Positions 12,591-64,000 of a stretch of DNA of 64,000 nucleotides are shown in pieces. This DNA is from Candidatus Roseilinea sp. (GTDB lineage: Bacteria; Chloroflexota; Anaerolineae; J036; Brachytrichaceae): the NCBI GenBank assembly GCA_026003755.1, contig BPHV01000004.1:310001-374000 (forward strand). Reading direction: 5' to 3'. The notes beneath the pieces were generated by a model, which was not told where the DNA came from, ran no database searches, and was given only the letters and a program-made list of their open reading frames with translations. Each line of letters starts with the position of its first letter. Position 1 is the first letter of the stretch. A program made the position numbers and the translations under genes.

Positions 12591-13073
12591 TCAACGCCAC
12601 GCGCGCGCTGTCAGCAACTGGGGCTCAACGTTACACACCTGGGGTAGTTTCTCCAGTGCGCCGACGCTGCGCAGCGCAGCAGCAGCATCGCCATCTTCGC
12701 GCTCCAGCCAGGCAACGTGGGGCGCGTAAGGCGGCGACTGGGCGATGACGAAGCCAAGCTTGCGAAACGCGTCAGTATACGCCTCGACGCGCGCACCTTC
12801 GTTCAACCGGACGAAAACCCGACCGGTCGGCACGACCAACATGCCGCCGTTGCCCTGATAGACGGCGCTCACCTCCTCACCGGGCGCCGGCGGCTCTCCC
12901 TTCAGGATCAGATAGGTGCTGTCATCGTCGTCTTTTAACGTCAGCACAGCATCCTTTGCTTGAGCGGACGACGCGTTCTTGACGGCGTGATAATTCTCGG
13001 CGCGGGTATAGATCACCTCGGCGTGCTCGGTGCTGGCGCGAAGGCACATCGGGTAGTCCAACAGATGACTCAT
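12591..13073 (-). CDS. Stand-alone subtilase-prodomain-like protein
   Basis: Protein of 160 residues, no signal peptide and no catalytic motif. Its second half (about residues 80-155) has the shape of a subtilase propeptide: GRVFVRLNEGARVEAYTDAF, a KLGFVIAQSPPYAPHVAWL stretch, then an alanine-rich helix and a LPQVCNVEPQLL ending. The protease transcribed away from it (13263) has the same arrangement just before its catalytic domain (LFVKFDDEAKATACRQLI ... VEYCHPELI). The two genes are divergent with a 189-base shared control region. Known stand-alone prodomain homologues (I9-type) act as inhibitors or folding helpers of subtilases, so I infer such a role. It could also be a simple truncated paralogue. 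Confidence 0.55.
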   Translation of the reverse strand: MSHLLDYPMCLRASTEHAEVIYTRAENYHAVKNASSAQAKDAVLTLKDDDDSTYLILKGEPPAPGEEVSAVYQGNGGMLVVPTGRVFVRLNEGARVEAYTDAFRKLGFVIAQSPPYAPHVAWLEREDGDAAAALRSVGALEKLPQVCNVEPQLLTARAWR

Positions 13074-13249
13074 AACTGATGCCCATACACACGCAGAATG
13101 ACGACGATGGCGATTCGGCAGCCGTTTGACAAGAGATTATATCGGCCATTATTATCGCTGCACATTTTCAGGCGACGACACCGAGCGCTCGTCCTCTTGA
13201 GCGGATCTGAGTCTAGTTGAGCGTTGCCGGTCGCGCGCCGCCTACAGCA

Positions 13250-13256
13250 CAAAGGA
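13250..13256 (+). promoter_or_regulatory. Ribosome binding site that fixes the protease start
   Basis: AAAGGAG lies six bases before the ATG at 13263. An in-frame upstream start near 13224 lacks such a site, so 13263 is taken as the protease start. Confidence 0.7.
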
Positions 13257-13262
13257 GCTTTC

Positions 13263-15260
13263 ATGAACGCATACACGGTTCAGTATGGCGGCAAAAAGGG
13301 ACAGACCTACAAGCTAGAAGAGAGCAGCGATCTCATCGCCGTGCGCACGCGCAGCCACAATCCGGTCTTCGCGACTGCACCCGACGAAGGCGCAGCACTC
13401 TCCGACGATGCTCTGGCAATCCTTGGCCATTTTGAACTCGAAGCGCAGTATTTCAACGCTGGCGTGGCCATACTGCGGACCCGCACGACGCGCCAGGCCA
13501 GGTCCATCCGCGATCAGGCGCGGGCCGTGCTGAAGCGCGAGCCAGACGTGCGCTTCGCCGGCCGCGTGCTGGTGGATCCACAATCGAAAGCGCCGGTGCT
13601 CTACACCGAGAACCTCTTCGTCAAATTCGATGACGAAGCGAAGGCCACGGCTTGCCGTCAACTCATCAAGAAGTATGGCCTGACGATCAAGTCGCCGGTG
13701 GATTACGTGCGCAACGGTTACTTCCTCGGCGCGCCGGAGGGCATCGGCCTCGAAGTGTTCGATGTTGCTCAGCGGCTGCTCCAGGAGGAGGCGGTCGAAT
13801 ACTGCCACCCAGAGTTGATCCGCCGCCGACGTGACCGCGCCGCCTTCCCCCACCAGTGGCACCTGCGCAAGACCACCATCGGCGGCCGGGTGATAGACCA
13901 GAGCGCCAACGTCGAGGCTGCCTGGGCGCTCTCGCAAGGGGAAGGGGTGACGATCGCCATCATTGACGACGGCGTGGACATTGACCACGAAGAGTTCCGC
14001 TCGGCGGGCAAGGTCGTCGCTCCGCGCGATGTCACGCGCCGGACGGACGACCCTCGGCCGGGCAACTTCGACAACCACGGCACGGCCTGCGCCGGCGTAG
14101 CCTGCGCCAACGGCGCGTTTGGCGCATCGGGCGTGGCACCCAAGGCGCGGCTGATGCCGATCCGGCTGGCCTCCGGCCTTGGCTCGCAGCACGAGGCCGA
14201 CGCCTTCGTCTGGGCGGCGCAGCATGGCGCCGACGTGATCTCGTGCAGTTGGGGGCCGGCCGATGGTCAATGGTGGAATCCCGACGATCCGCTGCACAAG
14301 CAGGTCGTGCCTTTGCCCGACTCCACACGCTTAGCCATGGACTACGCCGTGCGCAACGGGCGCAACGGCAAAGGCTGCGTGATCTTGTTTGCCGCCGGCA
14401 ACGGCAACGAGAGTGTAGACAACGACGGCTATGCCAGCTACGACAAAGTGATCGCCGTCGCGGCGTGCAACGACATGGGGACGCGCGCCGCCTACAGCGA
14501 CTATGGCAAAGCGATCTGGTGCGCCTTCCCCAGCAGCCACGGTCATCCATCGCTGACGCCGGGTATCTGGACGACGGATCGCACCGGCGCGCCGGGCTAT
14601 AACCCCGGCCAAACCAGCCGCGGCGACGCACAGGGCAACTACACGAACAGCTTCGGCGGCACGTCGAGCGCGTGTCCCGGCGTAGCCGGCGTGGCAGCGC
14701 TCATCCTGGCGCGCAACCCCGACCTACGCTGGGACGAGGTGCGCGAGATCATCAAGAATTCGTGCGACAAGATAGACGCGGCCAACGGCAACTACGACGC
14801 CAACGGCCACAGCCCCTGGTATGGCTTCGGGCGGGTAAACGCGCGCAAGGCAGTCGAGCTGGCCGCCCCGCCGCAGCCGCAGCCGGTGGTGATCGTCTCG
14901 GTCAAGCAGGATGTGCCGATCCCCGATCTGAAGTCGGCGAAGCTGAGCGCGACCGTGGCCGAGACGCGCCCGCTCAAAGCCCTCAAGGTCTGGGTGGACA
15001 TCGAGCACACCTATCGCGGCGACCTGGTCGTCACGCTCAAGCCGCCGCCGGCTTCCGGCATTGGCGACATCGTGCTGCACAACCGGCAGGGCGGCGCCGC
15101 CGACCACATCAAGCAGACCTATGACGCGGCCAACACGCCGGCGCTGGCGTCGGTGGCCGGCAAGTCCCCTAGCGGCGAGTGGACGCTGCTGGTCGCGGAT
15201 AAGGCGCGTTACGACGTCGGCAAGATCCGCGAGTTCAAGCTGGAGATGATTTTCGCGTAG
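13263..15260 (+). CDS. Subtilisin-like protease with P-domain (kexin/PrcA-like), leaderless of signal peptide
   Basis: S8 family serine peptidase of 665 residues. Order: a novel N-terminal region (1-100), a prodomain-like segment (about 110-195), the catalytic domain (about 215-530) and a C-terminal P/homoB domain (about 540-665) ending in GEWTLLVADKARYD. The catalytic triad is visible: Asp in IAIIDDGVDIDH (about 234), His in FDNHGTACAG (about 271), Ser in GGTSSACPGVAG (about 468), plus the oxyanion Asn in FAAGNGNE. There is no signal peptide, so it is either intracellular or exported by another route. The layout recalls the calcium-dependent protease PrcA of cyanobacteria. It is divergent from the small prodomain-like gene and converges on acs with a 17-base gap. 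Confidence 0.88.
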   Translation: MNAYTVQYGGKKGQTYKLEESSDLIAVRTRSHNPVFATAPDEGAALSDDALAILGHFELEAQYFNAGVAILRTRTTRQARSIRDQARAVLKREPDVRFAGRVLVDPQSKAPVLYTENLFVKFDDEAKATACRQLIKKYGLTIKSPVDYVRNGYFLGAPEGIGLEVFDVAQRLLQEEAVEYCHPELIRRRRDRAAFPHQWHLRKTTIGGRVIDQSANVEAAWALSQGEGVTIAIIDDGVDIDHEEFRSAGKVVAPRDVTRRTDDPRPGNFDNHGTACAGVACANGAFGASGVAPKARLMPIRLASGLGSQHEADAFVWAAQHGADVISCSWGPADGQWWNPDDPLHKQVVPLPDSTRLAMDYAVRNGRNGKGCVILFAAGNGNESVDNDGYASYDKVIAVAACNDMGTRAAYSDYGKAIWCAFPSSHGHPSLTPGIWTTDRTGAPGYNPGQTSRGDAQGNYTNSFGGTSSACPGVAGVAALILARNPDLRWDEVREIIKNSCDKIDAANGNYDANGHSPWYGFGRVNARKAVELAAPPQPQPVVIVSVKQDVPIPDLKSAKLSATVAETRPLKALKVWVDIEHTYRGDLVVTLKPPPASGIGDIVLHNRQGGAADHIKQTYDAANTPALASVAGKSPSGEWTLLVADKARYDVGKIREFKLEMIFA

Positions 15261-61211: not shown

Positions 61212-62630
61212 ATGCAACAGATATCCTGCCTGCGCTATTACAGCGCGCTCGTAGCTACGCTACTGATGTTTTTTGCTGGGACGCAATCGGTGCGTGGCCA
61301 AAGCAGCACCCTCTTTCTGCCGATTGTGCATGGGCCAAACTGCGGCGGGGCGCGCTTGCCGCGCATCAACGCCCCTGGCTTCGGCAACGCCACAATTCCT
61401 TTTGCGCAAACGGCGATTGCCTGGTTCGGCCAGCTCTCGCCCGATAGCAACTATGCCGACATCCGCGTCGGCTACAACAACGCACAGCTCTACGTGTACT
61501 TTGCCGTGTTCGACCGCCATCTGTGGCACGACACCAACCCGACGCCGGCCACGCTCACGCAATGGGACGCCGTGACGCTACTGATTGACACCGCCGGCGG
61601 CAGTGTGCTCTCTGCCTCCTCGTGGCGCTTTGTGGCGCAGCTCTCCGGCGATCCTGATCCGGCCTATCGTGCTGCCTACCGCGGCAACGGATCAGGCTGG
61701 CAGGCGGCGAGCGCGTCCTTTCAGGCTGTGCCCGGCTGGCGCGGCAATGCGCTCAATGACAACAGCGATACCGACCGCGGCTGGGCGATGGGATTCACCA
61801 TCCCGTTCAGCAGCCTCGGCTTAAGCGGCTCGCCGGCGCTGGGAACGCAATGGCGCATCGCCGCCATCTTGCACGACCGCGACGCCCAAGCCGGCCCGCC
61901 GCTGGCCGATCAGCACTGGCCTGCGGCCATGGCGCCGGACAAGCCACAGTGTTGGGGTTGGTTACGCTTTGGGCTGCCCGCGTATGCCGCAATCGGCGCG
62001 CCGAGCGGCCACGCCCTCATCCGCCGCCCGACACAGACTAGCCCGTCGGTGCCCGATGCCGACGTGGGCGGTGCAAGCAGCAACCAATGCCCAGGCGATG
62101 ATGCCTACATCTGGCCCCAATGGGCCAACGCCAATTACGGCAGCGCGCCCGACTTCAACATTCAGAACCAATCGGATGTGGCCGATTGGCCATGCTTCTC
62201 CAAGTACTTCATCACCTTTCCGTTGACGGCCATCCCGCCCGGCAAGACGATCCTCTCGGCTACGCTCACCTTGTACCAGTTCGGTAATTCAGGCGGAGCG
62301 TCAGCGCCGTCCTCGTGGATTCAAGTATTGCTGGTGAATGGCGCCTGGCAGGAGCACACCCTCACCTGGAACAACGCCCCACCCTTCGAGGAGAACGTCA
62401 GCGGTGCGTGGGTGCCGCCCATTATCAACTTCCCTGGCTGGCCGGGTGTGCCGCGGGTGTGGAATGTATCCTATGCCGTCGCCACGGCCTACGCGCGCGG
62501 CGAGCCGCTGCGCCTGGCGCTCTACAGCGCCGACTCCGATTACCACACCGGCAAATACTTCGTCTCGTCGGATACTGGGGATTGGAACACTGCCGGCCGG
62601 CCGCGCTTGGAGGTGTGGTGGCGCGACTGA
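61212..62630 (+). CDS. Secreted CBM9-like / DNRLRE-like protein
   Basis: Exported protein of 472 residues. Signal peptide (MQQISCLRYYSALVATLLMF), the motif STLFLPIVHGPN, a CBM9-like beta domain (about 45-260) with WDAVTLLIDTAGG, and a second beta domain of the DNRLRE/CBM96 type (about 275-472) with GDDAYIWPQWANANYG, FITFPLTAIPPGKTI and WNVSYAVATAYARGEPL. Both fold types bind carbohydrate. There is no catalytic motif. It follows the propeller gene with no gap, so the two are one unit. Confidence 0.75.
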   Translation: MQQISCLRYYSALVATLLMFFAGTQSVRGQSSTLFLPIVHGPNCGGARLPRINAPGFGNATIPFAQTAIAWFGQLSPDSNYADIRVGYNNAQLYVYFAVFDRHLWHDTNPTPATLTQWDAVTLLIDTAGGSVLSASSWRFVAQLSGDPDPAYRAAYRGNGSGWQAASASFQAVPGWRGNALNDNSDTDRGWAMGFTIPFSSLGLSGSPALGTQWRIAAILHDRDAQAGPPLADQHWPAAMAPDKPQCWGWLRFGLPAYAAIGAPSGHALIRRPTQTSPSVPDADVGGASSNQCPGDDAYIWPQWANANYGSAPDFNIQNQSDVADWPCFSKYFITFPLTAIPPGKTILSATLTLYQFGNSGGASAPSSWIQVLLVNGAWQEHTLTWNNAPPFEENVSGAWVPPIINFPGWPGVPRVWNVSYAVATAYARGEPLRLALYSADSDYHTGKYFVSSDTGDWNTAGRPRLEVWWRD

Positions 62631-62724
62631 ACCACGCGATGGCGCGGAGTCGCGGGGGCGTCACAACCTGCGCTTGCCTTCCCGGCGGCGCGCCCTGTTG
62701 CCTGGCAAAGGCAACCGGCAGGTA

Positions 62725-62730
62725 TAGAAT
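62725..62730 (+). promoter_or_regulatory. -10-like hexamer close to the subtilase start
   Basis: TAGAAT (overlapping TATAGA) ends seven bases before the GTG at 62738. No Shine-Dalgarno site is seen. Confidence 0.4.
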
Positions 62731-62737
62731 TCCATCG

Positions 62738-64000
62738 GTGAAGCGCTTCCGTCTATTCATCACCTCGGCGCTCTGCCTGGCCATGCTCACGGCCTGGCGG
62801 TTGCCCGCGTTACCCGAACCGCCGCCCAGCGTCTCCGCCCGAGCCTGGGCAGCGACTGCGGTTCGAGGCGCCGTCGCCGATGTGATCGTCACACTACCCG
62901 GCTACCCCGACCTCTCACCTTCTCGCGCATTGCGCACAAAGCGCGAGAAGACCCGCTTCGTCGTCCAGGCGCTGCAAACGCATGCCGAGCGCGCTCAGGC
63001 GCGACTGCGCGCCGACCTCGCCGCGCGCGGCCTTGACTTCTTCCCCCTATGGATCACCAATCAAATCGTCGTCCGACGCGTAGACCGACCGACGCTGCGT
63101 TGGCTGGGCACGCGGAGCGACGTCATCCACGTTGACCTGGACGAGCGAACGCGCGGTCTCGACAATAATCAGACCCAGCACCGGCGCCCGAAATCCCACG
63201 CTACGCTGACCGTTCCCCATTCTCCGACTACAATCGAATGGGGCGTCCAGCGGGTAAACGCCCCACAAGTCTGGGCCAAGGGCTACACCGGCCAGGGCAT
63301 TGTCGTCGCCAATCTAGACACAGGGGTGCGCTGGGATCACGATGCGCTCAAACCCCACTATCGCGGCTGGAACGGCGTCACCGTCACCCACGACTATCAC
63401 TGGTTTGACGCTGCACCCGAAGACGGCAATCCACCCTCGCCTACGCCGGTGGACCTGAACGGCCATGGCACGCACACCACCGGCACCGCGGTTGGCGACG
63501 ACGGGATGGGCAACCAGATCGGCGTTGCCCCCGGTGCCAAATGGATCGCCTGTCGCAACATGGCCGGCCCAAGCGGCATCGGCAGCGTGGCGCGCTACAT
63601 CGCTTGCTTCCAGTTCGCGCTCGCGCCAACCGATGTGAACGGCAATTCCCCCGATCCCGATCGCAGCGCCGACATCACCAGCAACTCCTGGGCTTGCGAT
63701 CCAGCCTACGGCGAGATCGGTTGCGACGTGCCCACTGCGCTTGTCACCGCGACCCAGGCGTTGCGCAATGCAGGCATCATGGTGATCGCATCGGCGGGCA
63801 ACAGCGGCTCGAGCTGCGAAACGGTGAGACTTGCGCCGGCCACGCTGGATCAGGCGTTTACGATCGGCGCGACAAACGGCAGCGACGCCATCGCCGGCTT
63901 CAGCAGCCGCGGCCCCTCGCTGCTCACGGGGCGCATCAAACCGGATGTCGTCGCGCCTGGCGTCGGCGTACGTTCGGCGTGGTCGTCCTCGACGAACAGC
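62738..64000 (+). CDS. Secreted S8 subtilase (bacillopeptidase F-like), 3'-truncated
   Basis: Open for 421 codons to the window edge. Signal peptide (VKRFRLFITSALCLAMLTAW), a prodomain (about 45-150), then the catalytic domain: Asp in IVVANLDTGVRWDHD (about 194), His in NGHGTHTTGTAVGD (about 242), oxyanion Asn in VIASAGNSGSS (about 350). The active-site serine lies beyond the edge. An insertion between Asp and His (WFDAAPEDGNPPSPTPVD) and the GVQRVNAPQVW start resemble the bacillopeptidase F/vpr branch. The start is GTG. It is the second subtilase of the window, unlike the first exported. Confidence 0.88.
   Translation, partial: MKRFRLFITSALCLAMLTAWRLPALPEPPPSVSARAWAATAVRGAVADVIVTLPGYPDLSPSRALRTKREKTRFVVQALQTHAERAQARLRADLAARGLDFFPLWITNQIVVRRVDRPTLRWLGTRSDVIHVDLDERTRGLDNNQTQHRRPKSHATLTVPHSPTTIEWGVQRVNAPQVWAKGYTGQGIVVANLDTGVRWDHDALKPHYRGWNGVTVTHDYHWFDAAPEDGNPPSPTPVDLNGHGTHTTGTAVGDDGMGNQIGVAPGAKWIACRNMAGPSGIGSVARYIACFQFALAPTDVNGNSPDPDRSADITSNSWACDPAYGEIGCDVPTALVTATQALRNAGIMVIASAGNSGSSCETVRLAPATLDQAFTIGATNGSDAIAGFSSRGPSLLTGRIKPDVVAPGVGVRSAWSSSTNS

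Follow-up and report, generated by a model that had tools for sequence, protein, structure and literature searches.

Small proteins with the fold of a subtilase prodomain that are encoded apart from their target have been described in eukaryotes, but scarcely in bacteria. In Aeromonas sobria, a kexin-like protease, ASP, and a separate small prodomain-fold protein, ORF2, are encoded by adjacent genes (PDB 3wqb; PMC5638518); the C-terminal lysine of ORF2 reaches the active site of ASP, and ORF2 inhibits ASP with an IC50 of 84 nM (PMC5638518). POIA1, yeast Pbi2, Arabidopsis SPI-1, TgMIC5 and Plasmodium SUB1-ProM (I9 and similar) are separate small propeptide-fold gene products and potent subtilase inhibitors, and SUB1-ProM adjoins the gene of its own target (PMC6993865). 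Protein inhibitors that act on proteases inside the cell are uncommon (PMC3901451). In the case of IPI (BsuPI), a cytosolic bacterial subtilase has a cytosolic protein inhibitor. The calcium-dependent protease PrcA of Anabaena is presumably an intracellular, Arg/Lys-specific, Ca-dependent subtilase with a propeptide and of a length similar to that of the protease described here; we know of no stand-alone prodomain partner of PrcA. A literature search with partial coverage found no stand-alone prodomain that inhibits a cytosolic subtilase in bacteria.

The window, that is the whole analysed stretch of 64,000 nucleotides from Candidatus Roseilinea sp., contains a locus which resembles ASP/ORF2 in combining a kexin-like protease with a small prodomain-like protein encoded next to it. 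We infer, with a probability of about 0.72, that the small protein serves as a dedicated inhibitor of the adjacent protease in the cytosol, acting in trans by mimicking the product. The two genes and the region between them are:

12591..13073, minus strand: stand-alone prodomain-like protein, predicted cytosolic protease inhibitor (160-residue ORF; orthologues; profile homology to subtilase prodomains; fold)
13263..15260, plus strand: kexin/furin-like subtilase of 665 residues without signal peptide (PF00082, PF01483; best solved relatives kexin and furin)
13074..13262, no strand: shared divergent control region of 189 bp (length verified; alignment of eight genomes)
13126..13155, plus strand: sigma-70-type protease promoter TTGACA-N18-TATTAT, 11/12 matches (conserved in the genus; TTGACA in 8/8 genomes)
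13136..13141, minus strand: TATAAT, possible -10 element of the small gene, within the spacer of the protease promoter (ATTATA on the plus strand, 7/8 genomes)

The start of the protease is best placed at the ATG at 13263, which is preceded by AAAGGAG and gives a protein of 665 residues; the genes diverge, and the distance from ATG to ATG is exactly 189 bp. Direct reading of the N-termini of the small protein (MSHLLDYPMCLRAS...) and of the protease (MNAYTVQYGGKKGQ...) reveals no hydrophobic signal segment. The positions of both ORFs, their divergent layout, the shared 189-base control region and a protease without a signal peptide, all of which had been claimed in an earlier note on this DNA, were thus recovered. 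The flanking genes belong to ordinary metabolism (a homocysteine methyltransferase/MTHFR fusion and an acetyl-CoA synthetase). About nine S8 loci are present in the genome; a second, unrelated subtilase starts near the end of the window (62315-64000, plus strand) and runs off it. No good -35 element was found for the minus-strand TATAAT in the eight-genome alignment. If this element serves the small gene, the two promoters would overlap and could not be occupied simultaneously, which is only a suggestion.

The protease is composed of the following parts:

13263..13592, plus strand: prodomain unit 1, beta-alpha-beta-beta-alpha-beta, residues 1-110 (AlphaFold secondary structure)
13593..13838, plus strand: prodomain unit 2 with the cleavage-site tail RRRRDR, residues 111-192 (AlphaFold; structural matches, several of which end at R192, to the PC1/3 prodomain and subtilisin prosegments)
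13938..14783, plus strand: catalytic S8 domain (D235, H272, S468; D334, D388 and E311 correspond to furin D258, D306 and E236)
14979..15245, plus strand: P-domain of the proprotein convertase type (PF01483)

Pfam assigns residues 226-507 to Peptidase_S8 (PF00082, E=3.7e-47) and residues 573-661 to the P-domain (PF01483, E=3.1e-12), and among proteins of solved structure the nearest in sequence are yeast kexin (E=4e-31), mirolase, furin (E=2e-24) and the Aeromonas serine protease. With an S8 catalytic domain nearest to kexin and furin and a P-domain, the enzyme is kexin-like (S8B-like). Its catalytic triad (D235, H272, S468) is intact, and D334, D388 and E311, which align with furin D258, D306 and E236, are kept in all 12 orthologues; counting also the S2 residue D154, equivalents of furin D258 and D306 (S1), E236 (S4) and D154 are found in 12/12 family proteases. 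In the established furin structures, D258, D306 and E236 are the acidic residues which bind Arg at P1 and P4. Since these are kept in every orthologue, the protease is likely to be specific for Arg.

The prodomain of the protease (residues 1-192) is modelled as two successive beta-alpha-beta-beta-alpha-beta units (AlphaFold, pLDDT 90). For the second of them, the PC1/3 prodomain in complex with furin (9fie_B) is a match with a Z of 9.8, residues 112-192 of the model lying on residues 29-110 of the chain, and ORF2 (Z 9.6) and subtilisin prosegments match as well. The prodomain ends in RRRRDR, followed by AAFPHQWHL, and the presumed P1 residue (R192) is basic, R or K, in 12/12 family members; in distant relatives, as judged by eye, it is Lys (G212, G221, G258) or Thr (G381). 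The same two-unit prodomain was seen in another S8 protease of about 740 residues (L034 and L036, from G022 and G023; also in G019 and G020), with prodomain-profile E values of about 1e-14, so that several subtilases of the group share a prodomain of two units.

Pairwise BLASTP between the small protein and the adjacent protease was non-significant (E=0.34), so that profiles were required. The small-protein alignment comprised 13 members, including a diverged paralogue from G024. This second stand-alone prodomain-like gene (contig 39, L013 1480-1956, minus strand) encodes 158 residues with 28% identity at an unrelated locus, has R-x-x-R near its end (RHKREE), and no protease was seen near it. 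The small-protein profile and the prodomain profile aligned over 103 columns with a score of 72.5 (P=3.4e-11); reversing the profile gave 18.0, and 200 shuffles of the columns gave a maximum of 26.6 and a mean of 13.1. Searches in both directions agreed: when 396 genomes were scanned with the small-protein profile, it hit the prodomain of a 709-residue subtilase in G258 (E=1.1e-9), and a profile made from prodomains only found the small genes of G018, G015, G016, G019, G024 and G014 (E 8.4e-7 to 2.2e-5). Judged by these profiles, the kinship of the small protein with subtilase prodomains is genuine. The prodomain resemblance noticed earlier, weak as it is in pairwise comparison, is borne out at the level of profiles, and the profile alignment pairs exactly the motifs that had been set side by side, VEYCHPELI and VCNVEPQLL.

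The stand-alone proteins form a separate clade (support 0.97 in a short-alignment tree), for which reason we rejected an origin by recent duplication from the adjacent prodomain. Inhibitor_I9 was not among the Pfam hits, and PF22148 (Fervidolysin prodomain) and PF18492 (ORF_2_N) appeared only below threshold, in 4/13 and 2/13 members, respectively. PF12690 (IPI/BsuPI, immunoglobulin-like fold) matched no member of the small family, and the predicted fold is different too. A Pfam match to LAL_C2 (E=0.007) lies below the cut-off of that family, spans 30 residues and was discarded, as were the hits L014, L021 and L045, chance matches within unrelated genes. A search of PDB sequences with the small-family profile gave chance hits only (D-lactate dehydrogenase, E=0.16).

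The AlphaFold model of the small protein (pLDDT 89, pTM 0.82) contains a complete beta-alpha-beta-beta-alpha-beta prodomain unit in its C-terminal half (residues 78-157), and, when the secondary structures of the two models are compared, its N-terminal half resembles the first prodomain unit of the protease in a shorter form with one helix missing. When structural matches were ranked with VIA-align, ORF2 of Aeromonas (3wqb_B) came first (Z 8.3, 92 residues, rmsd 3.2), followed by the PC1/3 prodomain in complex with furin (Z 7.3) and the propeptides of Tk-subtilisin and subtilisin (Z 6-6.9, those of Tk-subtilisin 6.5-6.9); the protease's own prodomain has the same set of top matches. Thus the structure prediction proposed in the earlier note assigns the subtilase-prodomain fold to both proteins. 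These Z values are modest, the fold is common and RRM proteins follow closely behind, so the weight rests on the sequence evidence for the kinship. RRM-domain proteins (NONO, SFPQ) filled the first list from Foldseek with low TM and rmsd above 11 A, sharing ferredoxin-like topology only, and were set aside; the realigned list is led by prodomains.

One further feature concerns the end of the small protein:

12594..12605, minus strand: C-terminal tail R157-x-x-R160, predicted occupant of protease subsites S4-S1 (R157 and R160 invariant in 13/13; R160 corresponds to R192)

Conservation within the protein is highest over the last 11 residues (mean 0.75 vs 0.58 for residues 1-80), with R157 and R160 invariant in all 13 members, the diverged paralogue included. 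In the profile alignment R160 falls on R192 of the protease, the equivalent of the prodomain's cleavage-site Arg, and in the structure alignments both residues fall on residue 110 of the PC1/3 prodomain, which is the P1 Arg of the primary cleavage site of PC1/3. R-x-x-R is the minimal furin-type recognition motif. Taken together with this motif, the coincidence of the three residues makes the tail such as would be expected of a product-like inhibitor of the adjacent protease. Two observations count against the inhibitor reading: one or two residues follow R160 in 3/13 members, and the P4 Arg of the small protein is without a counterpart at P4 in some cognate prodomains.

Among 28 genomes of the family, 12 have both genes, 16 have neither and none has a single one, a count that ignores phylogeny and may reflect few events. 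The genes are adjacent and divergent in the 8/8 members of the genus which have the pair. Four genomes from two further genera (G012, G014, G015, G016) carry both genes, but on different contigs with unrelated neighbours; in G012 the two contigs measure 179 kb and 245 kb, and over 20 kb separate each gene from the contig ends. The genome of G022, of the same genus and in one contig, has 14 S8 matches and has kept the acetyl-CoA synthetase gene, and it contains neither an orthologue of the protease nor the small gene. Thus, the association of the small gene with the orthologous protease across the family is strong.

Outside the family, sampling of 396 genomes from the class and 400 from the phylum yielded no intact small gene, and no relative turned up in plasmids or viral contigs. 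The pairing, whose absence from related genomes would have refuted the reading of the earlier note, does recur in the family, adjacent in eight genomes and unlinked in four; by these samples it is not a general feature of the phylum. The only trace of the small gene beyond the family is a truncated remnant of its C-terminal part in G287, a genome of another family (L043, around 1501-1708), about 60 residues long, ending in VENVEPQMLLESVRR and without a clear start codon; it is possible that this remnant is a relic of transfer. The nearest relative of the protease outside the family, a close one, is encoded in G381 (L048 1495-4239), a genome with no small partner. This protease has no S1 Asp (SWGPKG vs SWGPAD), its prodomain is without the P1 Arg, and from its sequence SH3-like repeats and a cysteine-rich end look like replacements of the P-domain. 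That it manages without the small protein is counted against the inhibitor reading.

Between the window genome and eight relatives, dN/dS was 0.11-0.32 for the small gene, 0.08-0.24 for the prodomain of the protease and 0.05-0.12 for the catalytic domain. In 12 genomes the small protein is a separate ORF of about 160 residues with its own stop and no catalytic domain. On the evidence of these orthologues and of the dN/dS values, the small gene is real and is maintained under purifying selection.

The main alternative to inhibition is that the small protein is an external folding chaperone, as ORF2 is for the Aeromonas serine protease, and that inhibition is a by-product. ORF2 is the best structural match (Z 8.3), the fold and the basic C-terminal residue (Arg here) are as in ORF2, ASP is also of the kexin family and a relative of the adjacent protease, and ORF2 both aids the folding of ASP and inhibits it (IC50 84 nM; PMC5638518). 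But ASP is propeptide-deficient, whereas the adjacent protease has a complete tandem prodomain (residues 1-192) that is itself under purifying selection (dN/dS 0.08-0.24), so a second folding helper would be redundant; moreover, related proteases exist without such a gene, none having been detected in G381 and none nearby in Pantoea. We therefore consider a chaperone rather improbable. The earlier note had proposed an inhibitor or a folding helper: prodomain kinship, fold and recurrence speak for that proposal, and of the two functions inhibition has the stronger support, since the protease has kept a constrained prodomain of its own.

It is also conceivable, with a smaller probability still, that the small protein is a prodomain-type inhibitor but acts chiefly on a different one of the cell's roughly nine subtilases, or on a protease of foreign origin. 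The several S8 loci in the genome, the separate clade of the stand-alone family, which is no recent copy of the adjacent prodomain, and the second, diverged copy at an unrelated locus in G024 are in agreement with this. However, the small gene occurs exactly where the adjacent type of protease does, even in genomes that keep the two apart, and does not follow S8 genes at large; within the genus the two are neighbours, and the R-x-x-R tail suits the predicted specificity of this protease. That the small gene is a decaying, functionless prodomain copy is very improbable: the remnant in G287 indicates that decay does occur, but the gene is full-length in 12/12 family genomes with invariant terminal residues, and the selection data (dN/dS 0.11-0.32) contradict it.

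Inhibition of the adjacent protease by the small protein might proceed as follows. The protease would fold with the aid of its own tandem prodomain and would mature by cutting after R192, between RRRRDR and AAFP. The 160-residue protein would then provide in trans what the cleaved prodomain provides only briefly: its C-terminal beta-alpha-beta-beta-alpha-beta unit would pack onto the catalytic domain, and its R-x-x-R tail would occupy subsites S4-S1 like an uncleaved product. As long as the inhibitor is not removed, diluted or out-titrated, the mature enzyme would thus remain inactive in the cytoplasm. This scheme starts from the gene structure, the homology, the predicted fold, the invariant tail, the conserved specificity residues, the co-occurrence and the purifying selection. 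The Arg specificity, the autocleavage at R192, the binding, the inhibition and its physiological reason are what we infer from them. With somewhat less assurance than for inhibition as such, we regard it as probable that a bacterial proprotein-convertase-like protease, which keeps its own prodomain, is silenced in the cytoplasm by a gene-encoded prodomain with an R-x-x-R tail tuned to S4-S1, a counterpart of the eukaryotic stand-alone propeptide inhibitors.

If this is true, the locus would be a bacterial example in which target, binding site and cleavage-site mimicry can be read from the sequence, meaning that the same solution arose in bacteria. It might also serve as a simple system for how a free prodomain changes from folding helper to regulator, and as a natural inhibitor scaffold for furin-like specificity.

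In comparison with known systems, the locus shares with ASP/ORF2 a basic C-terminus at the active site, Lys in ORF2 and, by prediction, Arg here. In contrast to ASP, which is secreted and lacks a propeptide of its own, so that it needs ORF2 to fold, the protease here keeps its full prodomain, and both proteins lack a signal peptide; unlike asp and its partner, the gene pair is divergent. The I9-type examples named above are all eukaryotic (PMC6993865), whereas the predicted target here is a cytosolic bacterial kexin-like enzyme; also unlike them, a reduced first unit precedes the inhibitory unit and the tail ends in R-x-x-R. IPI likewise concerns a cytosolic bacterial subtilase, but its immunoglobulin-like fold is unrelated to prodomains. 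This kind of protein is already known from the I9-type mimics and ORF2, and what appears new, within the literature searched, is its combination with a prodomain-bearing cytosolic kexin-like protease.
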